Shown here in pieces: positions 1-44,176 of a stretch of 45,110 nt of DNA. Location of the stretch: the IMG/VR virus record IMGVR_UViG_3300032562_000054, positions 1 to 45,110 of that record. The stretch is one strand, 5' to 3'. Under the pieces are notes generated by a model that was not told where the DNA came from, did no database searches, and saw only the letters and a list, made by a program, of their open reading frames with translations. Both the position numbers and the translations under genes were made by a program. The stretch's first letter is position 1. Each line of letters starts with the position of its first letter. This DNA is from a virus.

Positions 1-127
1 GCCGACGTGCGAGCGTCGACAACGTAGTGGTGCCACAGGCCGGAAAACCGGTCCCAGCAATCCCGGAAGCGGCCTGAGTTCCTCGTGGGGTTCCCGGCTA
101 CGGCCCAGATGATTTGAGTGTTCGCGT
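1..127. repeat. Terminal direct repeat, left copy (assembly overlap)
   Basis: Bases 1-127 are identical to bases 44984-45110. The repeat lies inside the terminase large subunit gene, and joining the two copies restores one open frame. A length of exactly 127 is a usual k-mer size in short-read assembly, so this is most likely the overlap of a circular contig and not a physical end of the virion DNA. Confidence 0.95.
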
Positions 128-704
128 CTGTGGTCGCGCCGTCGAGGACTTCCCAGATCACATCGGCAATGGCCGAGGCCTCGTCGCAGAGGATCATGAT
201 CCGCTTGCCGTAGTTGTGCAGCCCGGCGAATGCCTCGGGGTTCTCCTCGCTCCAAGGGATGGCGTCAATCCGCCAGGTTTTCTCGTGCGCGGGGTCCGAC
301 GAGAAGATCGCAGTCGCCGAAACCTTGAACATGAACTTGCCGATGAAGAGCTGGTGCCACTTACTCAACTCGCCCCAGAGCACCCGCATGAGCTGCTCCT
401 TCGTGTTGGCCGTGACCCGGCCCCGGGTGTCCTCCAGCGTGGAAATCCCCCACAGGATCAGCCAGGAGAAAAAGGCTGACTTCCCCACTCCGTGACCGGA
501 CCGGACAGCGATACGCCAGGCCTCATCCATATTGATAAGGCCCTCCTGCAAGTCGCTCAGCACAGCGATCTGCCAGGTGTCCGGCCCGGTCATTTCCGCG
601 AGGGCTGTCCCCGGCTCACCCCACGGAAAAGCAGCATAAACGAAGTCCAGCGGCCGGTCTTTCAACTCGGCCATCAGGTCTATGACCTCACTCTCCCAGC
701 TCAT
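1..704 (-). CDS. Terminase large subunit TerL, N-terminal part (continues at the window end)
   Basis: This is the ATPase half of the packaging motor that pumps DNA into the prohead through the portal. The minus-strand frame starts with ATG at 702-704 and runs off the left edge. Continued at 44983-44176 it gives 503 residues. Visible motifs are Walker A GHGVGKS at about residues 73-79, a Walker B-like segment IMILCDEAS, and WAVAGNP as the coupling motif. The start codon lies 17 bases inside the end of the small-subunit gene, as in translationally coupled terminase pairs. The nuclease half is at the other end of the window. The fold and order match the Terminase_6 type. No break is present; the split is caused only by where the circle was opened. 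Confidence 0.95.
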   Translation of the reverse strand, partial: MSWESEVIDLMAELKDRPLDFVYAAFPWGEPGTALAEMTGPDTWQIAVLSDLQEGLINMDEAWRIAVRSGHGVGKSAFFSWLILWGISTLEDTRGRVTANTKEQLMRVLWGELSKWHQLFIGKFMFKVSATAIFSSDPAHEKTWRIDAIPWSEENPEAFAGLHNYGKRIMILCDEASAIADVIWEVLDGATTDANTQIIWAVAGNPTRNSGRFRDCWDRFSGLWHHYVVDARTS

Positions 705-1332
705 CACACGCCCCCTCGATAAAAGAAATATCTTGGGGGGCCAGTCCTGAATCGCCCCCGCCTTCGGCGGGGCTGGGAGTGACGTTCTTGAGCATGGCAA
801 GTCGTTGCCGGGCCGCGATCATCCGGGAGCCCAGCTCGACGTTGACGTTCGTCTGAACGCTTTTTTGCACAGGCGCATGCCCGGTTCGGTCGGCGAAGGT
901 CTTGGCGATCTCAAGCTGCATACTCGCCGGCAGCGGGTTCTCGTCGTCCTCCAGAGCTTCCTGAAGGTTCGCCATAGCCGTTAAGCTAAGGAGTCCGGCG
1001 CGCTCGGTGAACTCGGCCATGAGGCCGTCCTCGACGGAGCGGTAACTCGTGACGAGGTCCTGGAACGTCGGGTCTTGCTTGAGGATCGAGATCCGGCTGA
1101 CGTCGTAGCCTGTGATGATGCTGGCCTCGGTTGGGGTTTTGCCCTGCGCGAGCAACCGCGCCAGCGCGTGGTGCCGGTCCCGTAAGCGCGTCAGGCTTGG
1201 GGCCTTGATGCCCCGGCCGGACTCGAGCAGGGCAATATCGGCCGGGCCTAGCTCGCGGACATACTCAGCCTGCACCGCCTTTCGGGGGCGGCCTCGAGTA
1301 CGCGGCGTGAGGTCCAACGAGGAGATTTCCAT
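688..1332 (-). CDS. Terminase small subunit-like DNA-binding protein
   Basis: A 214-residue protein if started at the ATG at 1330-1332 (MEISSLDLTP). It carries a basic RGRPRK stretch near residue 14, then a helix-turn-helix-like region (LLAQGKTPTEASIITGYDVS, about residues 68-87), and an acidic C-terminus. This matches small terminase subunits that bind the packaging site and load TerL. It sits directly before terL and overlaps it by 17 bases. The frame stays open upstream to 1581, but the extension is low in plausibility because it runs through the control region. The chosen start has only a GGGGG stretch immediately upstream, so the ribosome-binding site is unusual. First gene of the late minus-strand block. 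Confidence 0.75.
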   Translation of the reverse strand: MEISSLDLTPRTRGRPRKAVQAEYVRELGPADIALLESGRGIKAPSLTRLRDRHHALARLLAQGKTPTEASIITGYDVSRISILKQDPTFQDLVTSYRSVEDGLMAEFTERAGLLSLTAMANLQEALEDDENPLPASMQLEIAKTFADRTGHAPVQKSVQTNVNVELGSRMIAARQRLAMLKNVTPSPAEGGGDSGLAPQDISFIEGACDELGE

Positions 1333-1701
1333 ACCCCCAGCCTGCGGTGCTTCGCGGCCCGAGTCAAGCCCGCTGAACAAAAAATTTCCGGCGAGGCCCT
1401 GAGCCATACAACGCGCCCGGAGCAACAACCATACCAGAGAAACCAAGTTAGTGCCTTCGGCACTGTGAGCCATATGAGTCGATTTGGGGATTTGTTTTAA
1501 CTGGCTCTTGCGCGCGCGCGGGCGTGGGCACTCGGCGGGGTACACCCCCCGAAATCGGCAAAACGGCTCGGACCACGGCACCCCGGCGAGGCCGGAAGAA
1601 AAGTGCAGTCCACCGCAAGATTGTTGTTGACACTCGGGATGGGCGGGTTATGGTGGCTCATCCAAAGCGGATTGGCCGCCGCGGATAACGGAGTCAAGAC
1701 A
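1333..1701. promoter_or_regulatory. Divergent control region between late (-) and early (+) blocks
   Basis: About 370 bases without a convincing gene, separating the leftward terminase operon from the rightward early genes. It contains three TATGGCTC-family sites in reverse orientation: GAGCCATA at 1401-1408, CAACCATA at 1426-1433 (25 bases apart) and GAGCCATA at 1467-1474. There is a perfect small hairpin GTGCCTTCGGCAC at 1451-1463, an alternating GC tract near 1508-1520, and a rightward promoter at 1627-1654. A leftward TTGACT lies at 1361-1366 on the minus strand, but it has no good -10 box at normal spacing, so the late promoter is not resolved. Confidence 0.65.
1627..1654 (+). promoter_or_regulatory. 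Promoter for the 1702 gene (TTGACA / TATGGT)
   Basis: A perfect -35 box TTGACA (1627-1632) is followed after 16 bases by TATGGT (1649-1654). The downstream block GGGTTATGGTGG is nearly identical to the promoter before the related gene at 9113 (GGGTTACGGTGG). Sigma-70 type. Confidence 0.75.
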
Positions 1702-2136
1702 ATGCAAGTTACCTTCAACATCGCCGACACCCTGACCGCGAATATCCGCGGGACCATGGTCGAACGGGATCTCACGGCGCTTCCAACCGAAGCCCTGGTG
1801 TATATCTTCCAGTACGGGTTCCAACGGATCAACAATGACTCGGCCGGACAGAACAAGGGCGAGGACGCGGTGGCGAACAGCGACAAGAAATGGAAGGCTC
1901 TGACCGAGGGTAAAATCCGAGCCAGCTCCACGCGCACCACGGACGAGCTGGGCAAGGAATGCCGGCGCGTCGCAGCCGAACGTGTTGACGCAGCGGCCAA
2001 GGCCAAGGGCGTTAAACTCGACGCGGACAATCGCAAGGCGCTTGTGGCGAAGCTGGCCGCGACCGAGGCAATCATTAACGTGGCGAAGGCCAATCTTGCG
2101 ACCATGGCCGAAATCGACATTGACCTCGATTTCTAA
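1702..2136 (+). CDS. Early protein A, related to the 9113-9649 product; function unknown
   Basis: A 144-residue protein. The start at ATG 1702 is chosen because GGAG stands 8 bases upstream; the frame is open to 1603 but that would overlap the promoter. The C-terminal 80 residues align with the product of 9113-9649: both have KAKG followed by V/I-x-L/I, an Ala/Lys-rich helix, and an end reading EIDIDL or ASIDLANL. The last residues are acidic and end in Phe (IDLDF), reminiscent of the tails of phage single-strand DNA-binding proteins such as T7 gp2.5, though no such fold is recognisable. It has its own strong promoter and a terminator directly after it, so it is probably abundant and made early. 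Function not recognised; a DNA-binding or host-takeover role is a guess. Confidence 0.85.
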   Translation: MQVTFNIADTLTANIRGTMVERDLTALPTEALVYIFQYGFQRINNDSAGQNKGEDAVANSDKKWKALTEGKIRASSTRTTDELGKECRRVAAERVDAAAKAKGVKLDADNRKALVAKLAATEAIINVAKANLATMAEIDIDLDF

Positions 2137-2164
2137 TCCCCGCGCCGAACGGCGTTGACTCAAG

Positions 2165-2200
2165 ACCCACCCGAGCTTATGGTTCGCGTGGGTTTTTCTT
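2165..2200 (+). terminator. Rho-independent terminator after the 1702 gene
   Basis: ACCCAC (2165-2170) pairs with GTGGGT (2188-2193), the stem being extended past one mismatch by CGA/TCG, and is followed by TTTTTCTT. It makes the 1702 gene a one-gene transcript. Confidence 0.8.
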
Positions 2201-2219
2201 TGCGCCACGGGAGGCGACC

Positions 2220-2399
2220 ATGTTTCGAGTCATCGCACGGGGGATTGTGATCGCCCAATTTCACACCCGGCATGAGGCGACGCAATTTGCCATCGCCATC
2301 GCCCACACGTCGCGCGTGGCGCCCGAGATCGTGTTCCATGATGGGGAATGCCCCGACGCGCCTCTTGCCCGTGTACGGGCATTCAAGTGTGCAGCCTGA
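2220..2399 (+). CDS. Small hypothetical protein, 59 residues
   Basis: ATG at 2220-2222 is preceded by a very good ribosome-binding site, GGGAGG, ending 5 bases before it. The product begins MFRVIARGIVIAQFHTRHEA and ends AFKCAA before TGA at 2397-2399. It is an alternation of short beta-like and helical stretches, with His22-Glu23 and Cys at positions 43 and 57. No family is recognised. It lies just downstream of the terminator of the 1702 gene and before a long non-coding gap. Real status rests on the ribosome-binding site and on coding-like composition; homologues would confirm it. Confidence 0.65.
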   Translation: MFRVIARGIVIAQFHTRHEATQFAIAIAHTSRVAPEIVFHDGECPDAPLARVRAFKCAA

Positions 2400-2480
2400 T
2401 TCGCCAAGGCATAAGCTAATTCCCCGAACATTCCCCGGATTCCCCTGGTATTGAAAAAACACGGATTTTGCCCCGTTGGG

Positions 2481-2513
2481 TATGGCTCACGCCCCGTGCG
2501 CATTGTATGGCTT
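2481..2513 (+). repeat. TATGGCTC element, direct pair
   Basis: TATGGCTC at 2481-2488 and TATGGCTT at 2506-2513, offset 25 bases. The first 23 bases (2481-2503) match 8960-8982 with two differences, so this is a true repeated element and not a chance octamer. Confidence 0.7.
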
Positions 2514-2546
2514 ACCCCACTGGGGTTTGTTGTTTTATCTTCAGTG

Positions 2547-2569
2547 TTTTTTTTTTTTTTTTTTTTTTT
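2547..2569 (+). repeat. Homopolymer of 23 T
   Basis: An uninterrupted run of 23 T in a GC-rich genome, placed between two TATGGCTC elements in non-coding DNA. Exact length could be affected by sequencing. Confidence 0.9.
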
Positions 2570-2600
2570 CTCTAGTCAGAAAGAAACTCGAGTGGGGTAG

Positions 2601-2631
2601 TATGGCTCTTGCCCCAAATGCGTGAGCCATA
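2601..2631. repeat. TATGGCTC element, 31-base inverted repeat
   Basis: TATGGCTC (2601-2608) and its exact reverse complement GAGCCATA (2624-2631) span 31 bases. The element at 8960-8990 has the same total length and orientation. Likely a binding site for a dimeric regulator or initiator. Confidence 0.7.
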
Positions 2632-2780
2632 CCTAAACCCCGAAAACCCGTCATTTTTCAATACGAGGGGAATCCGCAGAATATCAAGGGAATTAGGGTA
2701 TGCCAGGGACGTGCGTCCGCACGGTCTTGACAACCCGAACGGGTTTACCTGACGCCACGGTCTTGACCTTAAAAATCTTC

Positions 2781-2809
2781 TTGACATTCTTGATTGGACC
2801 ATATAAGAT
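2781..2809 (+). promoter_or_regulatory. Early promoter (TTGACA / TAAGAT)
   Basis: TTGACA at 2781-2786, 17 bases, then TAAGAT at 2804-2809. It points at the operon of small genes starting at 3006. Additional TTGAC-type boxes at 2727, 2764 and 2865 crowd the same region but lack good -10 partners. Confidence 0.65.
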
Positions 2810-2918
2810 TCTCGGACCGACCCGGCGTTCCGCCGCGAGGCAACTCGGAACCAGCCGCCGGTCTTTGACATTGTGAATCCTCGAATCGCATTCCGCCTCG
2901 TGCGGGAATTGCCGATTG

Positions 2919-2955
2919 AACCAGCCGGGCGCAAGAGCGTGTTTACCGGCTGGTT
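2919..2955 (+). promoter_or_regulatory. Leader hairpin, copy 1 (AACCAGCCGG stem)
   Basis: AACCAGCCGG (2919-2928) pairs perfectly with CCGGCTGGTT (2946-2955), followed by ATTTGGG. The same stem sequence, with one bulged C, recurs at 3933-3963. There is no long T tract, so it may be an RNA-processing or attenuation element and not a plain terminator. Confidence 0.6.
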
Positions 2956-3005
2956 ATTTGGGCAATTCCACAGCCGTCGCCCAGCGGCACAAATTGGAGT
3001 TAAAC

Positions 3006-3176
3006 ATGGAACCCGAAGTTTACACCCACGCAGTGCTTATCCTCACCGCGGACGGTGTCCAATGGCTCGGAACGTACCAAGACAAAGAGTCGGCGCAATC
3101 CGCAATGCGAGGCACCGACGTTCAAGGCGAGATGCTGATCCTTGTCCCGATTGAGGACTGGATGCACATTGCCTAG
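3006..3176 (+). CDS. Small hypothetical early protein, 56 residues
   Basis: ATG at 3006 follows TTGGAGT 6-11 bases upstream; the same leader wording (AATTGGAGTyAAAC) precedes the next gene at 3251. The product starts MEPEVYTHAVLILTADGVQW and ends EDWMHIA. It looks like a compact alpha/beta protein with aromatic residues; no family is recognised. The frame is open upstream to 2916, but that would run through the leader hairpin and has no ribosome-binding site. It is followed by a terminator-like hairpin, so it may be a separate short transcript. Confidence 0.75.
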   Translation: MEPEVYTHAVLILTADGVQWLGTYQDKESAQSAMRGTDVQGEMLILVPIEDWMHIA

Positions 3177-3192
3177 GCTTAGAGCCCGTGAG

Positions 3193-3214
3193 CCCCACGT
3201 CCGCGTGGGGTTCT
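3193..3214 (+). terminator. Hairpin after the 3006 gene
   Basis: CCCCACG (3193-3199) pairs with CGTGGGG (3204-3210) around a 4-base loop, followed by TTCT. The T tract is short, so termination may be partial. Confidence 0.6.
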
Positions 3215-3250
3215 AGGGACTTAATCCAAGTCCGAATTGGAGTCAAACCA

Positions 3251-3427
3251 ATGCAAACATACCACAAGCCTAACCGAGCCCGCCTCACCGCGGGTGAGCT
3301 TTCACCAGCCCAGCTTACGCAAGCCGAGTACATCGCAATCGCGCTTCGCATTCCCCGGGCGCGTCCTCAGCCCAAAGCCGCACTCGCCTTGCGGAAGTTT
3401 TCCTGGGAAGGGAGCGCGCGCGCATGA
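3251..3427 (+). CDS. Small hypothetical early protein, 58 residues
   Basis: ATG at 3251 follows TTGGAGT with about 9 bases spacing. The product is basic, begins MQTYHKPNRARLTAG and ends KFSWEGSARA. Its middle (SPAQLTQAEYIAIALRIPRA) could form a short helix-turn-helix-like unit, but this is weak. The stop overlaps the start of the next gene (ATGA at 3424-3427), so the two are translated together. No family recognised. Confidence 0.7.
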   Translation: MQTYHKPNRARLTAGELSPAQLTQAEYIAIALRIPRARPQPKAALALRKFSWEGSARA

Positions 3428-3528
3428 AGCCGCGTCTTGAAGCCATCCTCGTCGTAGTCGCTGTGCCAGCGCTTTGGGTTGTCCTTTGTGCCTGGCTTTG
3501 GATCATCTTGCCCCGAGGAACCCACTAA
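3424..3528 (+). CDS. Tiny single-span membrane protein, 34 residues
   Basis: The frame starts at ATG 3424, overlapping the previous stop as ATGA, and ends with TAA 3526-3528, whose last base is the A of the next ATG. The product begins MKPRLEAILVVVAVPALWVV and ends LPRGTH, so about 24 hydrophobic residues follow a short basic start: one membrane span with the N-terminus probably inside. A GGGAG sequence lies about 8 bases before the start. It is coupled on both sides, which supports it despite its size. It could be an early membrane-acting inhibitor; nothing specific is recognised. Confidence 0.65.
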   Translation: MKPRLEAILVVVAVPALWVVLCAWLWIILPRGTH

Positions 3529-3902
3529 TGAACACCATCGAGCCCAACGCAGTTCCGCTGTTCACGATTGACGGCGAGGCCGTTTCACCACTAATCCTCG
3601 CGCGGTTCATCCTAACCCAGTCTTTCTACGAGTACCGCCCGGAGGAGCTGTACCAGCACGAAAAGTTTGAGGAAACCTATGAAACACGCCTTGAACGTAT
3701 GTTTCTGGAGACCCGTCGCCACTTGGAGATGGATTACATTTCCATGGGCGCCTGTCACAAGATGGGTGACTGGTTTGCAAATCTTTGCGAGCTTTTCTAC
3801 GCTTACCAGTACCCAGAAGCGTTTCGTAGTATTATCGCTGATCGTCGCCAACGAGGTCAGGGGATTGGTGATGACACTTCCAGTGTGGATAGCACTGTTT
3901 AA
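3528..3902 (+). CDS. Hypothetical early protein, 124 residues
   Basis: Starts at ATG 3528 (TAATG overlap with the small membrane protein). The product begins MNTIEPNAVPLFTIDGEAVS. Residues 25-100 are rich in charged and aromatic residues and predicted helical (FYEYRPEELYQHEKFEETYE, then RLERMFLETRRHLEMDY). The last 15 residues are polar and Ser/Asp-rich. No catalytic motif or named family is seen. The C-terminus overlaps a hydrophobic short frame in another phase (ending at 3918) that is probably accidental. Confidence 0.75.
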   Translation: MNTIEPNAVPLFTIDGEAVSPLILARFILTQSFYEYRPEELYQHEKFEETYETRLERMFLETRRHLEMDYISMGACHKMGDWFANLCELFYAYQYPEAFRSIIADRRQRGQGIGDDTSSVDSTV

Positions 3903-3932
3903 ACTCTGGTTTCACTAGCCTTTGATCCATCC

Positions 3933-3963
3933 AACCAGCCCGGACCCAACATCCCGGCTGGTT
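3933..3963 (+). promoter_or_regulatory. Hairpin, copy 2 (AACCAGCC/GGCTGGTT stem)
   Basis: AACCAGCC-C-GG (3933-3943) pairs with CCGGCTGGTT (3954-3963) with one bulged C, repeating the stem at 2919-2955. It lies in the 84-base gap before the 3987 gene. Confidence 0.6.
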
Positions 3964-3986
3964 CAGTGGACCAACGGAGAAAGCCT

Positions 3987-4199
3987 ATGACTAACGTAAA
4001 CCCAGAGATTGCCCGGATCATCGTTATCCGGCAAGCCTTGAAACTCCTAGCCGTCGGCATCAAGCCCAATCGAGCCTACACGCTTTCGCGTTGCCTCCGC
4101 ATCGCCGGCGAGTACACAGGGAAGACCTATCCTCTCTCGCGAGGCAAGGCGCTTGTCGCGGCCCAAGACCTGAAGGAGTTTCTCGATGCGCAACGCTAA
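3987..4199 (+). CDS. Hypothetical early protein, 70 residues
   Basis: ATG at 3987 follows CGGAGA with 8 bases spacing, which is why it is preferred over the in-frame ATG at 3966. The protein is basic and mostly helical (PEIARIIVIRQALKLLAVGI then CLRIAGEYTG) and ends KEFLDAQR. It may be a small nucleic-acid-binding protein, but no motif proves it. The next gene starts 14 bases before its stop. Confidence 0.75.
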   Translation: MTNVNPEIARIIVIRQALKLLAVGIKPNRAYTLSRCLRIAGEYTGKTYPLSRGKALVAAQDLKEFLDAQR

Positions 4200-4578
4200 T
4201 CCGCCAACCGGCCGCGTGGCCTACTGGATTCAGCCCCGGCTTCGCGAGGTGACAACCCTCGTTCGTCCCGAGTGGAACAAGCGCGTCATCGCCGAGCTGC
4301 TCAACGCCGAGGCCCTTATGGAAGACCGCCTCGGCGACGGACTTATAGTCTATACTGACGTTTACGCGGACGAGCGCCGAGGAACGCCAGTGTGGTTCAT
4401 TGGCCGCACTCACTTTTTTGGCGACGCAATCTCGCTTATCGCGCCGCCCGAGCCGCGTTGGACTCGCTGGTGTTCCACGGGAACCTGCAACAGCCTCGGC
4501 CTTCGCACGTTTTACGACTCATCCGCGGACTTCGGCGAGCCGCCCGCGGAACCAATCTTTGGAGACAGCGATGCTTGA
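4186..4578 (+). CDS. Hypothetical early protein, 130 residues
   Basis: Starts at ATG 4186 inside the end of the previous gene, with CTGAAGGAG shortly upstream. It contains hydrophobic strand-like stretches (GLIVYTDVYA, TPVWFIGRTHFFGDAISLIA) and two Cys near residues 95-100, and ends with an acidic GEPPAEPIFGDSDA. No family recognised. Another frame running through its 3' half is a shadow of this gene and of the next one. Confidence 0.7.
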   Translation: MRNANPPTGRVAYWIQPRLREVTTLVRPEWNKRVIAELLNAEALMEDRLGDGLIVYTDVYADERRGTPVWFIGRTHFFGDAISLIAPPEPRWTRWCSTGTCNSLGLRTFYDSSADFGEPPAEPIFGDSDA

Positions 4579-4870
4579 AAACAAACTCCTGATCGAGTTT
4601 ACAGTCGATCCGAAAAACGGCCACTTCAACGCCACGCTGCCTAACGGCGCCCAGTTCCAGTTTACCCTGGACTTCGTCGGCGGCAAGCTCGGAGCCAACC
4701 TCGGCCTGTTCCGTGACGCAGTGCGCGCGCTTGATAAGAACGAGCCCTTTCGCCCCACAGTTCCTGTGGTTCGGCCCGAGCCGCTCTACGACGAGGCAAA
4801 AGTTCGTCGCTTCACGCCTCGTGGCAACCCTGAACTTACCCTCGCTGATCTTGACCTTGGAGACCTTTAA
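4571..4870 (+). CDS. Hypothetical early protein with LADLDLGDL tail, 99 residues
   Basis: ATG at 4571 is preceded by GGAGACAGCG. The product begins MLENKLLIEFTVDPKNGHFN, has an N-terminal beta-rich part (to about residue 45), a helix, a Pro/Arg-rich linker, and ends ELTLADLDLGDL. This Leu/Asp tail resembles the ends of the 8591-8959 and 10159-10368 products. The codons for the final LGDL include TTGGAGACC, which also serves as the ribosome-binding site of the helicase gene starting in the TAATG overlap, so part of the similarity may be imposed by that signal. Confidence 0.75.
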   Translation: MLENKLLIEFTVDPKNGHFNATLPNGAQFQFTLDFVGGKLGANLGLFRDAVRALDKNEPFRPTVPVVRPEPLYDEAKVRRFTPRGNPELTLADLDLGDL

Positions 4871-6375
4871 TGTCCAACCCTGTCCCCACCCCTGAACAAC
4901 TCGCAGTCATCGAGGCGTTCGCCAACACGCAAGACTCACTTGAAGTTCAGGCCGTCGCCGGTTCCGGTAAGACTTCAACTCTTGCCATGGCCTCAGCCCG
5001 GCTCCCAGTCCTCCCAACAATCTGCCTCGCCTTCAACAAAAAGAACGCTGAGGACATGGCCCGGCGTCTTCCCAGCTTCGTAACGTGCTCCACGGTTAAT
5101 GCCCTCGGCCACCGAGTCTGGGGCCAGACCACCGGGAAGAAACTTAAGTTGGAGACTGGAAAGGTCTACGACGCGCTCAGCGAGTACATGAACAAGGTCA
5201 AGGACGCCCAGCTCAAGCGCCAGCTTGGCGAGGACTTCGCCGCCCTCCTCCGTGTGATCCGGCTTGCGAAGGCTCTCGGCTACGTCCCAGCCAAAATGCG
5301 CGAGTTCGGGCGAAGCCTCCTCGAAGTCGAAGACCTTCTCGAGGCGGTTTATTCCCAGGTCGATATCAACATGAGCGACGAATACCTGTTCGTCCTCGAC
5401 CAAATCTTGGAGCAAGGCATTGCAGACTCATATCGAGGTGTCATCGACTTCGACGATCAGGTTTACATGTCCGCACTGTTCGGCGGTGTGTTCCCTAAAT
5501 ACTCGTGCGTCATGGTTGACGAGGCCCAAGACCTTTCTCCTCTCAATCACGAGATACTTGAACGACTTGCGGGCGGTCGAGTCATCGCAGTTGGAGATCC
5601 ATATCAAGCCATCTACGCGTTCCGCGGGGCCAGTCACACAAGCATGGAACAACTTTCCACTCGCTTCGGGATGCGCCGTCTGCCGCTCAGTGTTGCTTTC
5701 CGCTGCCCGCGACTCGTCGCAGATAATGTTAAGTGGCATGTCCCACACATTCAGTCTCCTGACTGGGCCGCGGATGGAGCCGTCGTTCATCTCGACCATT
5801 GGACGCCTGCGATGATTCCAGACGGCGCGGCGATAATCTGCCGAGCCAACGCGCCGCTGTTTTCCATGGCCATGCGGCTTATCCGCGCGAAGCGAGGAAT
5901 CAAAATCCTCGGCAACGATATCGGCGCGGGGCTGATCAAGCTGATGAAAAAGCTCGGCTCCGACACCGATCCGTCCGAGGTGTTCCTCGGCGAGATCAAA
6001 ACCTGGGAGGCCAAGGAGCTTACCAAGGCCGACAAGCGTCGCCACGCAGCCATCCATGACAAGGCAGATTGCCTCCGGGCTTTCGCGCGAGACACCCGAA
6101 CTCGGGGCGAGGCCATTGCCTACGCTGAGATGATCTTCAAGGCCGAGGGCCCGATCCAGCTTATGACCGGGCATAAGTCCAAAGGCGGCGAGTGGGACGT
6201 AGTCTTCTTCCTCGACTCGTTCCTCATCCCGAGCAAGTTCGCTCTTCGCGCCGCCGAGGAAGGCGACAACCGGCAGCTTACGCAAGAGCGCAATCTCAAA
6301 TACGTCATTGAGACCCGAGCTAAGCAAACCCTTTACTACGTCAATTCCGACGAGTTCCGACTGGAGGATTTCTAA
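4870..6375 (+). CDS. UvrD/Rep-family superfamily 1A DNA helicase
   Basis: A 501-residue ATP-dependent helicase for unwinding DNA during phage replication or recombination. Motifs in order: Q-motif region TPEQLAVIEAF (7-17), Walker A AGSGKT (30-35), Walker B VDEAQD (216-221), motif III GDPYQAIYAFRG (242-253), motif IV-like LPLSVAFRCP, motif V TGHKSKGGEWDVVF (about 433-446) and motif VI-like YVIETRAKQTLYYV near the end. At 500 residues it is shorter than cellular UvrD (about 720), lacking most of the 1B/2B insertions, as is common for phage members. It starts in a TAATG overlap and ends RLEDF with a second TAATG overlap to the next gene. Function is firmly inferred from the motifs; its exact step is not. 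Confidence 0.93.
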   Translation: MSNPVPTPEQLAVIEAFANTQDSLEVQAVAGSGKTSTLAMASARLPVLPTICLAFNKKNAEDMARRLPSFVTCSTVNALGHRVWGQTTGKKLKLETGKVYDALSEYMNKVKDAQLKRQLGEDFAALLRVIRLAKALGYVPAKMREFGRSLLEVEDLLEAVYSQVDINMSDEYLFVLDQILEQGIADSYRGVIDFDDQVYMSALFGGVFPKYSCVMVDEAQDLSPLNHEILERLAGGRVIAVGDPYQAIYAFRGASHTSMEQLSTRFGMRRLPLSVAFRCPRLVADNVKWHVPHIQSPDWAADGAVVHLDHWTPAMIPDGAAIICRANAPLFSMAMRLIRAKRGIKILGNDIGAGLIKLMKKLGSDTDPSEVFLGEIKTWEAKELTKADKRRHAAIHDKADCLRAFARDTRTRGEAIAYAEMIFKAEGPIQLMTGHKSKGGEWDVVFFLDSFLIPSKFALRAAEEGDNRQLTQERNLKYVIETRAKQTLYYVNSDEFRLEDF

Positions 6376-6545
6376 TGAGCCGTTCTAGCCAAGAACTTAA
6401 CCGCTATGAAGAGCTTCGCGAGGAGCACCCCGAGGCGACTGATGATTTCATCTGGGAGCTGATCCGTCAGGAACGCCTCGACGCCGCTGCGGATGAGGTC
6501 GACCGCGGACGCCAGCGCGCCAAGGATGAAGGAGGTTTCCGATGA
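6375..6545 (+). CDS. Small charged hypothetical protein, 56 residues
   Basis: ATG at 6375 overlaps the helicase stop (TAATG), and TGGAGG lies 7-12 bases upstream inside the helicase end. The product begins MSRSSQELNRYEELREEHPE and ends RAKDEGGFR; it is highly charged and predicted all-helical. Its stop TGA 6543-6545 overlaps the next ATG at 6542. Coupling on both sides and the ribosome-binding site GGAGG in its own end (for the next gene) support it. No family recognised. Confidence 0.75.
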   Translation: MSRSSQELNRYEELREEHPEATDDFIWELIRQERLDAAADEVDRGRQRAKDEGGFR

Positions 6546-7054
6546 CCCACACAGACCTGAAGCCGTGCCCGTTTTGCGGAGGCAAAGCCGCTTTTCTGAA
6601 TACGTTGTATCCGCCGAGGGTCCTTTGCACGTTCTGTGAAGTTATAGGCCCTGCGGTGTTTCCCCGAAACGTAGTTGACCTGTGGAACACCCGCACCCTC
6701 GACACCGCCCCGAGCAAGCCGTTCTGCGAAACGTGCGGCAAGAATGTGGGCGAGGTGTTGTGCCCGACGTGCGCCAAGTGGTGGGCCAATAATCCGCCGA
6801 CCGCCCCCGGCCAGAGCGCGGACCTGATAGCTGAGGCTGAGCGTTGGTTTGACGACCCGACCGGCGACGAAGATGCGCTCGTATCTGACACCATTGCCTA
6901 CAAGCTCATCACCGCCCTCCGCGCAGCAGAGGCTGAGAACGCGAAGCTGCGGGAGGCGCTGACCAGCATTGCCCGGAGCGCGTGTTGTGACACATGCCAA
7001 GAAGCTGCCCTCGTCGCCCGTGACGCCCTTGGAGGTCCTGATGCCCAGAGGTGA
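6542..7054 (+). CDS. Lar-like restriction alleviation protein with two zinc ribbons
   Basis: A 170-residue protein. The N-terminal 50 residues follow the Lar family pattern: LKPCPFCGGKA (7-17), then VLCTFC, then a conserved W-N-T-R. A second metal site follows with CETCGK and CPTCAKWW (about residues 61-82). A helical linker and a last CCDTC end the protein. Lar proteins of phages and prophages (named for Rac prophage Lar) soften type I restriction by acting on the host system; whether this longer version does so is inferred from the N-terminal motif only. It may instead be a general zinc-finger protein. The start overlaps the preceding stop as ATGA and has GGAGG upstream. Confidence 0.7.
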   Translation: MTHTDLKPCPFCGGKAAFLNTLYPPRVLCTFCEVIGPAVFPRNVVDLWNTRTLDTAPSKPFCETCGKNVGEVLCPTCAKWWANNPPTAPGQSADLIAEAERWFDDPTGDEDALVSDTIAYKLITALRAAEAENAKLREALTSIARSACCDTCQEAALVARDALGGPDAQR

Positions 7055-7274
7055 AGCCACCCCCGCCTGGCGCCTTGACGAGATCATAGATGACCTTTCT
7101 CGTCACGGCGCCTCGACCGCGGAACACATCGCAGCCCGCGTTGGCTGTGACCCTCGCACAGTGCGAAGCGTCCTCGGTCGCCTTCAACGCCGCGGGCTGG
7201 TTGAGTCCCGTCAAGACCCAGCCAGCAAGCGTGCCGCTTTCATCTGGAGGCTGTGCGATGAAACGAACACCTAG
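7041..7274 (+). CDS. Winged-helix DNA-binding protein, 77 residues
   Basis: ATG at 7041 has GGAGGT 4-9 bases upstream. The product contains a helix-turn-helix with wing: LDEIIDDLSRHG, STAEHIAARVGCDPRTVRSV, LGRLQRRGLVESR, the layout of MarR/ArsR-type small regulators. It is a candidate regulator of the phage's own promoters, for example at the TATGGCTC elements, but there is no direct evidence. It overlaps both neighbours slightly (14 and 17 bases). Confidence 0.8.
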   Translation: MPRGEATPAWRLDEIIDDLSRHGASTAEHIAARVGCDPRTVRSVLGRLQRRGLVESRQDPASKRAAFIWRLCDETNT

Positions 7275-7734
7275 CGAATGGCGCAAGCTACTTGAGACCA
7301 TGCGCGACAATAAGGTAAACAACCTCTTTGCCGAACACGCGATTGAGGACACGCTTGCGCTGGACACGAAGAACAAATCCCTTCAGTCCACCAACACGTT
7401 GCTCCGTCGGGAGATTGAGGAACTCCGAGCCCAGATCACCGGGCTCAAAGCCAACCTCGACTCCCAGGCAGAGTACGCCTCTACCTTCGAGACTCTCCGC
7501 GAGAGCTTCTTCGCGGCCAACCAGCAACTTAAAGCCGAACTTAAAGTTCGAAAGGAGACCTACCATGTCCGAGAAGACCAAGCTGAACGGCTCGCCATTG
7601 CCGAAGCACAGTGTGCTCGATACCGAGCCGCCTACGCAACCTGCCGAGCAAGCCTCGAACAGCTCGGAACCGACGTCGCCCGAGCCGCAATCGCCCGCGC
7701 TCGTACCTACATTGCCGATACTGGTCCTGCTTGA
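7258..7734 (+). CDS. Coiled-coil hypothetical protein, 158 residues
   Basis: ATG at 7258 has GGAGG 7 bases upstream. The protein is almost wholly helical, with heptad-like Leu spacing from about residue 35 to 90 (NTLLRREIEELRAQITGLKA), then an Ala/Arg-rich helix to the end. The last 170 bases overlap the next gene in another frame; the coiled-coil character continues through the overlap, so both frames appear used. Function unknown; possibly structural or a partner of DNA-replication proteins. Confidence 0.75.
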   Translation: MKRTPSEWRKLLETMRDNKVNNLFAEHAIEDTLALDTKNKSLQSTNTLLRREIEELRAQITGLKANLDSQAEYASTFETLRESFFAANQQLKAELKVRKETYHVREDQAERLAIAEAQCARYRAAYATCRASLEQLGTDVARAAIARARTYIADTGPA

Positions 7735-8038
7735 GTCCCCGTTCTCCGGCGACCGCGAAGCCAACGTAGCCTACGCGAGGCGAGCTATGCTTCACTCAAT
7801 CGCCAACGGCGAGGCACCGTTCGCCTCGCATCTGCTTTACCCTCAGGTGCTGAACGACTCGCTGGAGTCGGAGCGCGCCCTTGGTATTGTCCTCGGGCTG
7901 GTCTGGGGACTTCGCGCCGCCGCCACAGTAGTCTACGTTGACCGAGGCATCTCCGAAGGTATGCGCCTGGGCATTGCCGCAGCCCGCGAAGCCGGCCGAC
8001 CTGTTGTTTACCGCAGCTTAGATGGAGCCAATCTTTGA
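7565..8038 (+). CDS. DUF7768-like protein (nucleoside deoxyribosyltransferase-like fold)
   Basis: A 157-residue protein from ATG 7565, which has AAGGAGA 6-12 bases upstream. Residues 1-50 are a Pro/Ser/Glu-rich disordered leader overlapping the previous gene. From about residue 51 it shows a common phage domain: LVLLESPFSGDREANVAYAR, GEAPFASHLLYPQ, ERALGIVLGL, VVYVDRGISEGM, GRPVVYRSL. The order of strands and the GISEGM loop recall nucleoside 2-deoxyribosyltransferase-like folds. The reaction is not known; a nucleotide or nucleotide-signal target would be a guess. Confidence 0.8.
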   Translation: MSEKTKLNGSPLPKHSVLDTEPPTQPAEQASNSSEPTSPEPQSPALVPTLPILVLLESPFSGDREANVAYARRAMLHSIANGEAPFASHLLYPQVLNDSLESERALGIVLGLVWGLRAAATVVYVDRGISEGMRLGIAAAREAGRPVVYRSLDGANL

Positions 8039-8280
8039 CCTACCAATGGGACACCGCGATCCTCCGTGAGGACGCTGAAGGCAACGAAGACGAGATCCTC
8101 ATCAGCGTCTTCTACGAGTACACCCCGGGCCGCGTCGGCAGTTACTGGGACCCGCCCGAATGCGCCGAGCTTGAGATCGTCTCCGTCGAGCACAACAAGA
8201 AGGAGTTCGAGCTAACTCCGGACGAGTCTGAACGTCTCGAAGAGAATTGCTACCTCCACCACCTTTCAACCTTAGACTGA
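8035..8280 (+). CDS. Acidic hypothetical protein, 81 residues, TTG start
   Basis: The frame opens with TTG at 8035, overlapping the previous stop (TTGA), and GGAG stands 8 bases upstream. The product begins MTYQWDTAILREDAEGNEDE, is strongly acidic, and has strand-like segments (ILISVFYEYTPG, AELEIVSVEH). It could be a nucleic-acid mimic or a small beta protein; no family recognised. Confidence 0.7.
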   Translation: MTYQWDTAILREDAEGNEDEILISVFYEYTPGRVGSYWDPPECAELEIVSVEHNKKEFELTPDESERLEENCYLHHLSTLD

Positions 8281-8291
8281 GGAGTCCTCCT

Positions 8292-8582
8292 GTGGGCATG
8301 AGTAAATCCCTAGCTTCCTACGACGAAATTCGAGCCGCAATGGACCGGGCGCTTGACTCCGAGAACGGCGTCCGAATCCCTTGCGGCTCACCTCAGGCCG
8401 CGGTGAACCTTCGCCAGCGCTGCTACTACTTCCGGGGCCTGGACCGTGAGCAATCTACCAAAATCTTCGCCGCAGGTGATCCACGCCACGGCACTTCAGC
8501 CTACGACACGCTCGTCGTTCAGGCCACAGACTCGTTCCTTTACATCCGTAAAGGCGCCCCGCTTGTCATCGAAGAACTGTAG
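8292..8582 (+). CDS. Small phage protein, 96 residues
   Basis: GTG at 8292 is 7 bases after AGGAG; the ATG at 8298 (94 residues) is the alternative. The core reads NLRQRCYYFRGLDREQSTKI and later AYDTLVVQATDSFLYIRKG. A similar pattern, L-Q-Q-R-L-Y-x-x-R, then D-x-L, then L-W-I-I-K-K, occurs in the 9761-9976 product, so the two may be distant relatives. Such small proteins are common in phage early regions; function unknown. Confidence 0.7.
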   Translation: MGMSKSLASYDEIRAAMDRALDSENGVRIPCGSPQAAVNLRQRCYYFRGLDREQSTKIFAAGDPRHGTSAYDTLVVQATDSFLYIRKGAPLVIEEL

Positions 8583-8590
8583 GAGCACCC

Positions 8591-8959
8591 ATGTATGACC
8601 CAGCGTCGCCGCCGAACGGTTTCAGCTCCGGTAGCCTATACACTTCTCCTCTTCGCATATATCGCATTGCTCATCCTCACCTGCGCCGCTACTGGGTGTG
8701 GGACGAGGTGGGATTCCTCTGCGCCTGTGACACTTTGGAGGAACTCGACGCTTTGCTCGAGGCCCAAGCTTCCCGTCCACCAGACCCTCAGCGGCGGCAT
8801 TATTGGCCCCGCGCCCGAGACGTCGTTCACCCTGGACACGCCTTATCACTCGAAGCAACCGCGCTCCGGGTCGACGAGGATATAAACCGCCACGTAGCCA
8901 AGACTCGGGCAAGTCGTCCTGCGGTTACGCAGCTCAGCCTTAAGGATTTGGGCCTTTGA
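8591..8959 (+). CDS. Hypothetical protein with LSLKDLGL tail, 122 residues
   Basis: ATG at 8591 follows AGGAGCACCC. The product has an N-terminal segment rich in Ser/Pro/Tyr, a Trp-containing core (RRYWVWDEVGFLCACDTLEE), an Arg/Pro-rich middle and the C-terminus QLSLKDLGL. The tail resembles those of the 4571 and 10159 genes although the rest differs. A second frame starting 4 bases later (ATG 8595) encodes a possible lipoprotein, reported separately as a finding. Last gene before the second control region. Confidence 0.7.
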   Translation: MYDPASPPNGFSSGSLYTSPLRIYRIAHPHLRRYWVWDEVGFLCACDTLEELDALLEAQASRPPDPQRRHYWPRARDVVHPGHALSLEATALRVDEDINRHVAKTRASRPAVTQLSLKDLGL

Positions 8960-8990
8960 TATGGCTCTCGCCCCGCGCGCATCCGCCATA
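8960..8990. repeat. TATGGCTC element, third intergenic site
   Basis: TATGGCTC at 8960-8967 with a degenerate reverse copy ending GCCATA at 8990, 31 bases in all, as at 2601-2631. Its first 23 bases match 2481-2503 with two differences. Confidence 0.7.
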
Positions 8991-9030
8991 CAACGGGCTG
9001 CATAAAGTCCGGCAAGTCCGCGTTTTCTTC

Positions 9031-9059
9031 TTGACACCGCCCCGCCGCCGGGTTACGGT
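9031..9059 (+). promoter_or_regulatory. Promoter for the 9113 gene (TTGACA / TACGGT)
   Basis: TTGACA 9031-9036, 17 bases, TACGGT 9054-9059. The block GGGTTACGGTGG copies the promoter of the related gene at 1702. Confidence 0.75.
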
Positions 9060-9112
9060 GGATTTTCCCCGGGGCGCGTCCCCACAACCTAGCCTAACCG
9101 AAAGAGCATCCA

Positions 9113-9649
9113 ATGCCCGTTATCACTGACACGACCCCGGAAGAGACCTACACCATTGCTGGCGAGTCGTTCCAGATTCCGCAGCCCTACGCTGAAGGCC
9201 ATGTCCTGACCGCCGGCGAAGCCAGCCAGCTGAACCAAGTCTACGCGGAGAACATCCGCAACAACCTCGCCGCCAAGGTCAAGGAACTCAAAGAGGCCGG
9301 CACGTTCGACGCCGAGTCCTTCCAAGAGACCGTGGACGAGTACTGCGCCGCCTACCAAATGGGCGTTCGGACTGGCGGCGGTGGCCGTACCTCTGATCCG
9401 GTTCAGGCTGAGGCGCTGGAGATCGCCCGCACCCTGGTCCGCAACGCGATCAAGGCCAAGGGCATTCAGATCTCGTCCGTTCCGGCGGCGAAGATCACCG
9501 AGCTGGCCAAGGCTGCGATCGCCTCCAACCCGAAGATTCTCGAGACCGCTAAGGCCCGCGTGGCCGAAGCCCAGTCGCTTGCGTCGATCGACCTCGCCAA
9601 CCTCGGGTCGTCAGAGCCCGCGGCCGAGACCCCGAAGGCCAAGAAGTAA
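9113..9649 (+). CDS. Early protein B, related to the 1702-2136 product; function unknown
   Basis: A 178-residue protein beginning MPVITDTTPEETYTIAGESF. Residues 50-160 are helical (AENIRNNLAAKVKELKEAG; ALEIARTLVRNAIKAKGIQI), and the region from KAKG to SIDLANL aligns with the C-terminal part of the 1702 product. It has an extra Lys/Ala/Pro-rich tail (ETPKAKK). It is expressed from its own TTGACA promoter and is followed by a strong hairpin, so like its relative it is a stand-alone, probably abundant early product. Repeated helical, Lys/Ala-rich design could suit DNA or RNA binding; this is inference. The ribosome-binding site is weak (AAAGAG). Confidence 0.88.
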   Translation: MPVITDTTPEETYTIAGESFQIPQPYAEGHVLTAGEASQLNQVYAENIRNNLAAKVKELKEAGTFDAESFQETVDEYCAAYQMGVRTGGGGRTSDPVQAEALEIARTLVRNAIKAKGIQISSVPAAKITELAKAAIASNPKILETAKARVAEAQSLASIDLANLGSSEPAAETPKAKK

Positions 9650-9673
9650 GCGCCTCCCCGCTTGCGAGTTCTT

Positions 9674-9710
9674 CCCCGGCCGCTTGACTCCCGGCCGGGG
9701 GAGTCCTTTA
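9674..9710 (+). terminator. Hairpin terminator after the 9113 gene
   Basis: Two mutually exclusive stems are possible: CCCCGGCC (9674-9681) with GGCCGGGG (9693-9700), and GACTCCC (9686-9692) with GGGAGTC (9699-9705). The second is followed by CTTTA. The alternative pairing could make it regulated, but a simple terminator is more likely. Confidence 0.6.
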
Positions 9711-9760
9711 GCCTCATGGTCCGCCGTGGCGCTTGATGACTCCAGCACGAGTTCCCCCGC

Positions 9761-9976: not shown

Positions 9977-10166
9977 GCCCATTGTTAAGGTTACTCTTAA
10001 CCTTTACGAGCGAGACTACCTTCGGATGAAAGCCCTCCATCCGACGCTTGGCCCAGCCAAAGCCATCCGCGCGCTGGTCCGCAGCTACGTCGCTCGTATA
10101 GACAACCGCCTTTCCCCGCAGACCACTGATGGTCTCATTGTTGAACTGGAGCTAGAAGATGAGTGA
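9957..10166 (+). CDS. Ribbon-helix-helix-like DNA-binding protein, 69 residues
   Basis: GTG start at 9957 with AAAGG about 9 bases upstream, overlapping the previous gene by 20 bases. The product reads KVTLNLYERDYLRMKALHP as strand plus helix 1, then GPAKAIRALVRSYVARI as helix 2, the ribbon-helix-helix layout, and ends with an acidic tail (LIVELELEDE). RHH proteins bind inverted repeats as dimers, so it is a candidate for the TATGGCTC sites. It could also be a small accessory protein without DNA binding. Confidence 0.7.
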   Translation: MPKKEIEPIVKVTLNLYERDYLRMKALHPTLGPAKAIRALVRSYVARIDNRLSPQTTDGLIVELELEDE

Positions 10167-10368
10167 TGCAATCAGCGAACTCTTCGCCCGCGATCCATTG
10201 GAGCTTACGCGAGAGAACATCGAGTCGATCATTGCGTACTACCGCGAGAACCGAGAGAAGTTCGTCTCCGGGGTTAAAGCCCCAGCTGCGACGAAGACCC
10301 GGGCCGCAAAACCCAAGGCCGACCTCGCGGGCCTGTCCCTCAACGACCTTGGCCTTGGAGACCTCTAA
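10159..10368 (+). CDS. Small protein with LSLNDLGLGDL tail, 69 residues
   Basis: ATG 10159 overlaps the end of the RHH gene; TGGAGC lies upstream. Residues 1-38 are helical (LTRENIESIIAYYRENREKF), followed by a Lys/Ala/Pro linker (residues 40-54) and the terminus GLSLNDLGLGDL. This helical head, flexible basic linker and Leu/Asp tail suggest an adaptor whose tail is recognised by a partner. The tail codons also hold the ribosome-binding site TTGGAGACC for the nuclease gene that starts in the TAATG overlap. Confidence 0.75.
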   Translation: MSDAISELFARDPLELTRENIESIIAYYRENREKFVSGVKAPAATKTRAAKPKADLAGLSLNDLGLGDL

Positions 10369-12474: not shown

Positions 12475-12927
12475 ATGGTCGACTTCACAGATATCCTCTC
12501 CAAGAAAGCAGACTCCGTTGAGAAGCCGAAGCCGAAGCCGGTTGGCACCTACCTCACCACCATCCAGGGTATGCCCGCCATGCGGACTGTCACCTCGAAG
12601 GCCGGCGAGGACATGCCGGTGGTGGACTTCAAGCTGAAGGTCCTGATGCCCCAGGACGACGTGGACCAAGATCAGATCTCCGACGACATTTCGTCGTGGG
12701 CGCCGTTCATCCACTCGATCTTCCTCCACACCGAGGGCGGCCAGTACGCCTTCAAGCAGTTCCTCACCGTCACGCTTGACATTGAGGGCGGGAAGAAAAC
12801 CCTTGGCGAGATGCTGGCCGAGGCCCCGGGCAAGCAGGTGCTCATGAAACTCAAGCACGAGCCTTACGTCACCCGCGAAGGCACGACTGAGATCGGCACC
12901 CGTATCGAATCCTGCGCGAAGCCCTAA
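12475..12927 (+). CDS. Candidate single-stranded DNA-binding protein
   Basis: A 150-residue protein from ATG 12475 (GAAAGCACAG upstream is a weak site). It begins MVDFTDILSKKADSVEKPKP with a Lys/Pro linker, then a beta-rich body (YLTTIQGMPAMR, VVDFKLKVL, FLTVTLDI, GKQVLMKLKHEPYV) consistent with an OB-like fold. It directly follows the Sak4-like ATPase and ends at a strong terminator. In phages carrying Sak4 an SSB is usually the next gene, hence the call; there is no acidic SSB-type tail. Confidence 0.55.
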   Translation: MVDFTDILSKKADSVEKPKPKPVGTYLTTIQGMPAMRTVTSKAGEDMPVVDFKLKVLMPQDDVDQDQISDDISSWAPFIHSIFLHTEGGQYAFKQFLTVTLDIEGGKKTLGEMLAEAPGKQVLMKLKHEPYVTREGTTEIGTRIESCAKP

Positions 12928-12997: not shown

Positions 12998-14257
12998 GTG
13001 TCCTCAGGACAATTTGAAACCATCGCCCTGGCATCCATCACGATTGCCCGAGCGGAGCGAATCCGAAAAGAACTTGACGGAGCTGCAGTGGCGGCTCTTG
13101 CAGAAAGCATTAGTCGAATCGGCCTCCTGCATCCGCCAGTTGTCACACGTGAACGGGTACTCGTATCGGGTGAAAATCGAGTCGAAGCCTGTCGATCTCT
13201 CGGCTGGACCTCCATACCGATCCAGTATTCAGATACGCTGGACCCCCGAGAGCTTCTAGCCATCGAACTCGAAGAGAACGTCAAACGCTCGGACTTGTCC
13301 TGGCAAGACCAGTGCGACGCACTCCGCCGCTTCCACGAGTTGCAACAAGAAATCCATGAGGAGTGGTCCGTTGACCAAACAGCAGCCGCCGTCGGACTTG
13401 CTCCGCGAACTGTCTACGACCAGCTTAACGTCGCCAAAGCTATCGCTGACGGAGATCAGAGCATTGTTCTCGCCCCAAAGTATTCTGTGGCAAAGAACTT
13501 GGTTGCTCGCAAGACTGAACGTGCTGCGGCAGATGAACTCTCTTCTCTGCTCGGAGACCTCGCCGATCCGGAGCCCACGGAGGCTGCACCCAGTCCTATC
13601 TTCAACTCTGATTTCAACGAGTGGGCAAGCTCTTATACTGGGCGACCCTTCAATCTACTTCACTGCGATTTCCCCTACGGGATTGATGCACAGGAGTTCC
13701 ACCAGACCGCGAACGCAAGCCTAGGAGATTACGATGACTCTTTCGAGGTTTATGTCTCGTTGTTGGACACGCTGGAAGCAAACCGTGATCGCCTCCTTGG
13801 CGAGTCAGCACACATTATCTTCTGGTTTTCCATGCGTCATTACACTTACACTCTACAACGACTCTCAGCCATGTTCCGTGTCGATCCATTCCCCCTCATC
13901 TGGCACAAGTCCGACAACAAAGGTACGCTGCCTGATCCGGCTCGAGGTCCCAGGCGAGTCTACGAAGTGGCGTTCTTTTGCTCTCACGGAGACAGAAAGA
14001 TTATCAGCCCTGTCTCTAATACATTCTCTGGCCCAACGATCCGAACAGTAGGACACATGTCAGAAAAGTCCACTGACATGCTTGCCCACTTCATGAGGAT
14101 GTGCGTCGATGCTAACACGAGGCTTCTTGATCCTACGTGCGGTAGTGCTTCTGCCCTTCGTGCTGCCGATAGTCTTGGGGCTGGTTATGTACTTGGGCTG
14201 GAAAGAAACCCCGAGTTCGCCGCAGATGCGCAAAGAGCTTGGAGGGCTTCTCGATGA
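12998..14257 (+). CDS. ParB-like N-terminal domain fused to DNA methyltransferase
   Basis: A 419-residue fusion, GTG start with TTGGAGAGAG upstream. Residues 5-95 are a ParB/sulfiredoxin-type domain (ELDGAAVAALAESISRIGLL, then VSGENRVEACRSLG). Residues 120-150 resemble a helix-turn-helix (SVDQTAAAVGLAPRTVYDQL). The C-terminal half is an amino-methyltransferase with catalytic motif DFPYG (224-228) in place of DPPY and a SAM-binding-like LLDPTCGSASALRAA near residue 385; catalytic motif before SAM motif is the beta-class order. It probably methylates phage DNA (N6-adenine or N4-cytosine) and may protect against restriction. The specificity cannot be read from the sequence. Confidence 0.85.
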   Translation: MSSGQFETIALASITIARAERIRKELDGAAVAALAESISRIGLLHPPVVTRERVLVSGENRVEACRSLGWTSIPIQYSDTLDPRELLAIELEENVKRSDLSWQDQCDALRRFHELQQEIHEEWSVDQTAAAVGLAPRTVYDQLNVAKAIADGDQSIVLAPKYSVAKNLVARKTERAAADELSSLLGDLADPEPTEAAPSPIFNSDFNEWASSYTGRPFNLLHCDFPYGIDAQEFHQTANASLGDYDDSFEVYVSLLDTLEANRDRLLGESAHIIFWFSMRHYTYTLQRLSAMFRVDPFPLIWHKSDNKGTLPDPARGPRRVYEVAFFCSHGDRKIISPVSNTFSGPTIRTVGHMSEKSTDMLAHFMRMCVDANTRLLDPTCGSASALRAADSLGAGYVLGLERNPEFAADAQRAWRASR

Positions 14258-43712: not shown

Positions 43713-44176
43713 TTGGTGCCTCCAAGCAGAGTCGCGCCGCGAGTAGCATTACGGCCCAGCACGGCGGTGGGCGCGGCCTGGCCTTGCGTTAGGAACGTGC
43801 CTCCAAGCGGAGGCGGGGGCGCACCCACGTTCGGAGCGAACTTCGGAAGCTGGGGCGGACTCGGCGGCTTGGGCATCTTGGGCTGGTTCATCAGGCCCGC
43901 AATCGTCGCGCCAGTGCCGATGAGGCTTCCAGCCGTGGTGAGGTTTGCGGCCGTAAACAAGCCGCCTCCGGCTGCGGCCGTAGCCGTGGCGGCACCTCCA
44001 GCGGCGGCAGCAGCGCCAGCCCCGGCTCCAGCGGCTACGCCGTCAGCGGCTCCAGCGGCCAAGCCCGTACTTGCGGCGCCGATAAGGGATGAGCCCGCGG
44101 CTCCGGCTCCAGCCGCCGCTCCAGCTCCGCTTAGCGCGCCAATGGCGCTACCAGCCAGGGGGATCAAGAATCCCAT
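43709..44176 (-). CDS. Ala/Gly-rich hydrophobic virion protein, 155 residues
   Basis: Starts at ATG 44176 in a TGATG overlap with the terminase stop and has GGAGA upstream. The first 95 residues are almost all Ala, Gly, Ser and Leu (GAAAGAGAAGSSLIGAAS), followed by a Pro-rich segment (QPKMPKPPSPPQLPKFAP) and a short basic end. Such proteins occur between terminase and portal in some podoviruses and may be membrane-active ejection components. Function unknown; the low complexity means similarity searches will be noisy. Confidence 0.7.
   Translation of the reverse strand: MGFLIPLAGSAIGALSGAGAAAGAGAAGSSLIGAASTGLAAGAADGVAAGAGAGAAAAAGGAATATAAAGGGLFTAANLTTAGSLIGTGATIAGLMNQPKMPKPPSPPQLPKFAPNVGAPPPPLGGTFLTQGQAAPTAVLGRNATRGATLLGGTK

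Follow-up and report, generated by a model that had tools for sequence, protein, structure and literature searches.

We analysed computationally two genes of a viral DNA of 45,110 nucleotides (IMG/VR virus record IMGVR_UViG_3300032562_000054, positions 1 to 45,110; the whole stretch is called the window here), which a sequence-only reading had singled out as two related early genes, each with its own promoter and terminator. Both lie on the + strand: P0001, the upstream paralog (P1 type), encodes 144 amino acids ending in EIDIDLDF (1702..2136), and P0002, the downstream paralog (P2 type), encodes 178 amino acids (9113..9649) and directly precedes the replication and recombination genes. The reading-frame starts proposed earlier, an ATG at 1702 and another at 9113, are both correct.

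Two diverged paralogs and their relatives

Sequence comparisons indicate that P0001 and P0002 are old, diverged paralogs of one previously undescribed protein family. Aligned directly, they share 28% identity over 68 residues with an E value of 0.006 (two-sequence BLASTP, a single comparison), which is weak if taken alone because both proteins are rich in alanine (17% in P0001 and likewise in P0002). With a profile of four P0001-type proteins, P0002 was the second match in the whole window (E value, 3.5e-9) and scored 32.5 bits, with none of 500 shuffles as high; ten other P0002-type proteins gave mixed results against this profile, the one in locus L006 scoring 21.1 bits and the one in L008 no better than shuffles (78/500). 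Alignment of the two families by hhalign returned a probability of 91.5% and an E value of 8.5e-7 over 93 columns. In a stricter test, with the tails removed and the window sequences excluded from the profiles, residues 57 to 149 of P0002 scored 38.4 bits and residues 71 to 129 of P0001 scored 15.6 bits, each with 0 of 1,000 shuffles as high, and reversed sequences gave no match. The profile alignment is thus significant beyond composition and beyond the tail, and the common C-terminal region that had been read from the DNA stands as homology, although it is nearer 90 to 100 residues long than the 80 first given. That Ala-rich helical composition alone explains the likeness, as the Ala content and the bare two-sequence E value might suggest, is extremely improbable given the shuffled and reversed sequences and profiles free of both tails and window sequences.

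A simple search with P0002 found one close match, L002, and its relatives rose from 3 to 10 to 107 loci as the profile grew; we count at least 107 environmental phage loci, of which 80 were kept for analysis. One homolog is a hypothetical protein of Caulobacter phage Kuura (WCD44128.1, Kuura_050; 29% identity; E value, 5e-9), which has a longer acidic extension than P0002 and for which no function is stated in its record or in the available part of PMC9959647. An Acidobacteria genome bin also has one contig that encodes a relative, which does not identify the host of the window. P0001 had no match in named phages, even at an E value of 10, and relatives of it were found in phages that have P0002 relatives (G004/L006, with an E value of 5e-11, G008/L010, and G002/L004). 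Among 43 loci whose P0002-type gene is preceded by at least 7 kb of sequence, searched with a joint profile, 14 carry a P0001-like gene 6.4 to 9.3 kb upstream of it. Three further loci (L065, L068, and L099) match a P1-only profile (E value, 5.1e-8 or better), the P0001-type gene of L004's phage lies outside the flank and was found in L018, and the C-terminal half has been lost in some upstream copies (L055, L060, and L107). The notion of a pair therefore holds for the window, where both paralogs are present, but not as a universal rule, since most P0002-type loci have no detected upstream paralog. Phage ctMlz233 (L110 2682-3443; E value, 2.5e-5) and Microcystis phage Mel-JY34 (L109 912-1490; E value of 0.49 only) may hold distant members of the family, in both cases close to where the early region begins.

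A tree of 72 rows, unrooted and with several upstream rows on long branches (flagged by a tool warning), divides 16 upstream-type from 56 downstream-type proteins by one branch with a support of 99/99, and we therefore read the two types as the products of one old duplication. Residues E36, A37, N41, E46, N47, N50, N51, and Y81 of P0002, for example, are kept in nearly all of the 56 rows, and a highly conserved helix holds E36, A37, L40, N41, Q42, E46, N47, N50, and N51. Such strong conservation over phages of varied sources is unlike that of typical host-specific inhibitors and speaks against a different role for the pair, namely, a module for host takeover or counter-defence (an inhibitor of a nuclease or of host RNA polymerase, for instance) whose association with replication genes would be only positional. 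The early position and strong sigma-70 promoters, the rapid divergence that long branches show for the P0001 type, and the lack of known relatives would suit such a module, which we consider unlikely but deserving of some weight.

Expression units and genomic setting

The P0001 promoter (1627..1656, + strand) has the -35 hexamer TTGACA at 1627-1632, a spacer of 16 bases, and the -10 hexamer TATGGT at 1649-1654; in the P0002 promoter (9031..9061, + strand), TTGACA at 9031-9036 is followed by a spacer of 17 and TACGGT at 9054-9059. TTGACA plus GGGTTAYGGTGG occurs at exactly two sites in the window, 1627 and 9031 (0 expected from 100 shuffles), both with a sigma-70 layout, and so bears out the promoter claimed for each gene; a standard sigma-70 scan, which is stricter, lists that of P0001 and not that of P0002. 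The layout at P0001 recurs ahead of its L006 homolog as TTGACT-16-TATGGT. GGGTTAyGGTGG, which the sequence-only reading gave for each gene, consists of the -10 region and the bases around it and is not a special element conserved past the closest relatives; other relatives have different -10 hexamers, and the sigma-70 layout alone is conserved. As that reading also held, a hairpin follows each gene: the P0001 terminator (2162..2196, + strand; -23.8 kcal/mol for 2150-2205; z, -3.4) is followed by UUUUUCUU, and the P0002 hairpin (9671..9703, + strand; -30.0 kcal/mol for 9655-9720; z, -2.4) has 12 pairs and a weak U tract. An operator-like inverted repeat, TATGGC-N19-GCCATA, lies at 2601-2631 and 8960-8990 of the window and at 63-93 and 7680-7710 of L006, and two of these copies (window 8960 and L006 7680) stand immediately ahead of the P0002 promoter. 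GAGCCATA occurs eight times in the window compared to 0.8 expected.

A private promoter and hairpin are a conserved trait of P0001- and P0002-type genes and not of most of their neighbours. Our survey covered 84 members after removal of identical ends, with nine neighbouring gene families from the same contigs as controls, and scored the best sigma-70-like site in the 200 bases upstream (threshold, at least 10) and the folding of the 90 bases downstream (z below -2 relative to mononucleotide shuffles). Promoters reached the threshold in 8 of 15 P0001-type and 47 of 68 P0002-type genes, compared to 7/66 for sak4, 3/48 for polA, 1/50 for uvrD, 1/66 for the nuclease, 1/54 for the ssb-like genes, 1/51 for udg, 0/57 for the methylase, 0/29 for the 9957 family, and 0/51 for the 10159 family. 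Hairpins followed 10 of 16 P0001-type and 43 of 67 P0002-type genes, with control counts of 16/54 (uvrD), 7/66 (nuclease), 4/63 (sak4), 5/52 (methylase), 3/48 (udg), 2/34 (polA), 1/29 (9957 family), and 9/51 (10159 family); a strong downstream hairpin is not unique to the paralogs, as it follows 41 of 52 ssb-like genes. The private unit read from the window is thus conserved in relatives, and we infer from promoter layout and position that the genes are early and probably highly expressed.

P0002 is followed 3' by genes for three small proteins (9761, 9957, and 10159), a PD-(D/E)XK nuclease, an AAA protein matching a Sak4-like PHROG (E value, 1.8e-19), a weak match to single-strand DNA binding protein (SSB), a ParB-domain/methylase-like protein, a UDG-family protein, DNA polymerase A, and a primase/helicase, and the orthologs of these genes keep the same order in relatives. 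The SSB-like candidate (12475-12927) matches its PHROG with an E value of 0.0098, and two of its relatives have no match at 0.01.

Searches of Pfam, PHROGs, and NCBIfam with P0001 and P0002, and of PHROGs and Pfam with 45 family members, gave no convincing relative. A Pfam Apolipoprotein match (best value, 5e-5; 3 of the 45) is read as helical composition, and an Arc-like repressor PHROG match (4e-4), seen in just one of the 45, is not convincing. By sequence, solved structures gave no match below an E value of 0.2. AlphaFold models made separately for P0001 and P0002 both have strands at 10-15 and 18-23 followed by helices, at low confidence (mean predicted local distance difference test, 66 and 65; predicted template modelling score, 0.36 and 0.41, respectively), and a fold search of the PDB returned Z scores of at most 5.0, which are uninformative for models this weak.

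The setting raises the question of whether P0002 (and P0001) could be the phage's main SSB or a nucleoid-like DNA coat. Its private strong expression unit, its place ahead of Sak4 and near the polymerase, the early timing and abundance predicted for it, and the acidic-hydrophobic tails of the family would all be in keeping with this, as would the weak match of the competing candidate at 12475-12927. Yet the models, with the reservation about their confidence, predict a beta hairpin and helices and not an OB fold, no SSB profile appears among the matches of the 45 members, and net charge is mostly zero or negative; we regard an SSB or coat role as decidedly unlikely.

Several other features of these genomes are recorded here. 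The protein at window 12998-14257 joins a ParB N-terminal domain to a methylase-like C-terminus (below the Pfam cut-off), a fusion conserved in relatives, and the product of 6542-7054 has a Lar-type restriction alleviation domain (Pfam, 2.5e-7). Many of these phages have, upstream or downstream of the P0001-type gene and no more than about 1 kb from it, a run of 17 to 29 T on the early strand (window 2547-2569; L006 11, L037 413, L041 107, L051 1515, L052 3162, L018 7342, L099 1918, and L065 5461); in the window it is flanked by an imperfect inverted repeat (2408-2704; 85-nt arms, 78% complementary). In L006, L036, L047, L063, L100, and L104 the run is at most 75 bases from a contig end, which suggests an assembly break, an origin, or a genome end. 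Terminase-like sequence, by reading alone, seems to span the record ends (window 1-722 and about 44176-45110), which raises the possibility of a complete, circularly permuted genome.

A C-terminal peptide common to unrelated early proteins

P0001-type proteins and at least eight otherwise unrelated early families end in one common short peptide, with the consensus L-T/S-L-E-D-L-G-L-COOH, preceded by a Lys/Ala-rich stretch. Near-identical hydrophobic-acidic ends on unrelated proteins of one phage are seen in relatives, and looser forms are seen in the window, where four of 393 open reading frames (ORFs) have similar ends compared to 0.04 expected. Besides P0001, these encode an early protein ending in QLSLKDLGL, the tag (8591..8959, + strand); a 69-amino-acid protein of the ELFxxDPLxLT family with the tail LSLNDLGLGDL, the tag plus three residues (10159..10368, + strand); and an early protein with the degenerate tag LTLADLDLGDL (4571..4870, + strand), whose relative at L036 2002-2358 ends in VVTLEELGL.

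The motif [DE][LI]G[LIF] stands within six residues of the C-terminus in 68 of 2,047 non-redundant + strand ORFs, compared to 2.8 expected from its internal frequency; the ORFs were picked mechanically, and some tagged singletons may not be genes. On the - strand the count was 5 of 2,555 (5.8 expected), and none of ten control patterns with rearrangements or charge swaps exceeded 15, a count reached by the related [LI]G[DE][LIF]. In 57 of the 68 the ORF stops exactly after the motif, and all 57 exact tails have Gly at -2, Leu or Ile at -3 and -1, and Asp or Glu at -4, with Leu at -6 in 51. Only six tagged ORFs belong to the paralog cluster (five upstream-type proteins and, in L105, a P0002-type one), the other 62 lying outside the family. 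The bearers form 17 BLASTP clusters; they include an SF1 helicase in L076/L090, and the ELFxxDPLxLT family (54 members) is the most often tagged of all. A search for the small tagged protein in named phages gave no match. When ten tagged families, P1 among them, were compared by hhalign with their tails cut, one of 45 pairs exceeded 20% probability (c90 with c873), and at least nine tagged families are therefore independent at that sensitivity.

Tails of different families resemble each other most within a genome, with a mean of 3.0 of 7 identical residues compared to 1.63 between genomes (30 pairs; permutation p of 0.0005, the floor of 2,000 permutations). Where tail residues are identical, their codons agree in 66 of 200 cases within genomes and in 30% between genomes, and the DNA flanking the tails is on average 27% identical; with codons randomised and flanks unlike, these data argue for selection on the peptide and not for recent copying, and the copying of tails by recombination is unsupported on the same counts. 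The free C-terminal position of the exact tails is also what one would expect of a C-terminal degron, and the tail might accordingly mark its bearers for degradation or targeting by a host protease or adaptor instead of docking them on a phage machine. A general host signal would not be expected, however, to show the likeness seen within genomes at the positions just before the DLGL core, and an acidic core combined with Gly-Leu is not known as a degron; a degradation signal thus seems to us a very doubtful explanation.

A scan of all IMG/VR for the DNA pattern of TLEDLGL-stop, not seeded from P0002, matched six contigs, five of which have a P0002 relative: in L093, L112, L113, and L116 a P0002-family match lies in the retrieved stretch, L115 is the contig of L073 and has its relative elsewhere, and the L114 stretch has no P0002-family match. 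These phages are related, so that shared descent could explain the overlap. Four outgroup regions with a related nuclease and no clear P0002 (Tiera, Mel-JY34, ctMlz233, and ctKR88) lacked the loose tail pattern in three cases and showed it in three unconvincing ORFs in the fourth, a sample too small to prove a link. Searches of one open literature library returned no publication relevant to such a tag, which is not proof of novelty.

Possible function and known systems

The account that we tentatively favour, at a little short of an even chance, is that the ancient paralogs, made from private units, are adaptors or scaffolds of replication and recombination and that the tail docks its bearers on one partner. 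P0001 and P0002 would be small, probably non-enzymatic, abundant early proteins. Each seems to be its own transcription unit of a sigma-70 promoter, one gene, and a terminator and could therefore be made in larger amounts than the genes of the surrounding operon, as might befit stoichiometric components of a phage replication-recombination assembly on which many early proteins, P0001-type ones included, would dock through one tail.

Several observations weigh against this account. The window's own P0001 ends in a degenerate form and not in DLGL, and a search with a relaxed motif recovers only 2 of 16 P1 and 8 of 67 P2 tails. P0001-type tails do resemble the tag (3.82 of 9 compared to 2.85 for shuffled tails) but without detectable likeness specific to their genome (11 genomes; p, 0.37). 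P0002-type tails hardly resemble the tag of their own genome and do not track it (40 genomes; p, 0.35), which rules out P0002 as a general tag bearer. The low-confidence models match nothing, including in a BFVD fold search at 0.001. Finally, we spotted the tag before we tested for it, and the phages used had been selected because they have P0002.

For the docking account, P0002 could itself be a candidate for the partner of the tail: it is present in every locus (by selection), has its own promoter, is mostly untagged, and contains the highly conserved helix. A host protein is also possible. An address-tag system in which tagged early proteins (an SF1 helicase in some phages) gather on an untagged, abundant P0002 as the hub, with the tagged P0001 as a client or regulator, is an improbable elaboration, if a specific one. 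Regardless of the partner, the family, which has no annotated relative, spans at least 100 environmental phage loci, mostly in private transcription units, and the tail brings at least nine unrelated families together in one putative assembly, for which it predicts a shared partner, and offers a handle on uncharacterised phage proteins.

Known C-terminal peptides provide some points of comparison. SSB likewise recruits its partners through an acidic and hydrophobic peptide at its free C-terminus, but there one carrier serves many binders, whereas here the carriers are many and unrelated. Peptides that bind the bacterial beta-clamp have the form QL[SD]LF or QLxLxL, and we rejected this motif because Gln occurs at -9 in only 4 of the 57 exact tails and Asp or Glu at -4 in every one. 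By analogy, the common tail looks like a docking tag for one partner of the kind found in T4, where, according to the available part of PMC2988020, gp43, gp55, and gp33 have short, hydrophobic and acidic C-termini that are much alike, interchangeable, and bind one hub, gp45, with the tail of gp55 attached through a variable linker. As in these three, unrelated proteins of the phages studied here have nearly alike hydrophobic-acidic C-termini, but the sequence (L-T/S-L-E-D-L-G-L) and the phages differ, the bearers are more numerous (five in L112, a stretch of the L089 phage), and a Pfam scan of 22 window proteins, the structural genes not among them, gave no sliding clamp. If the docking account is true, the T4 principle of interchangeable docking tails would extend to other phages and to a new partner.

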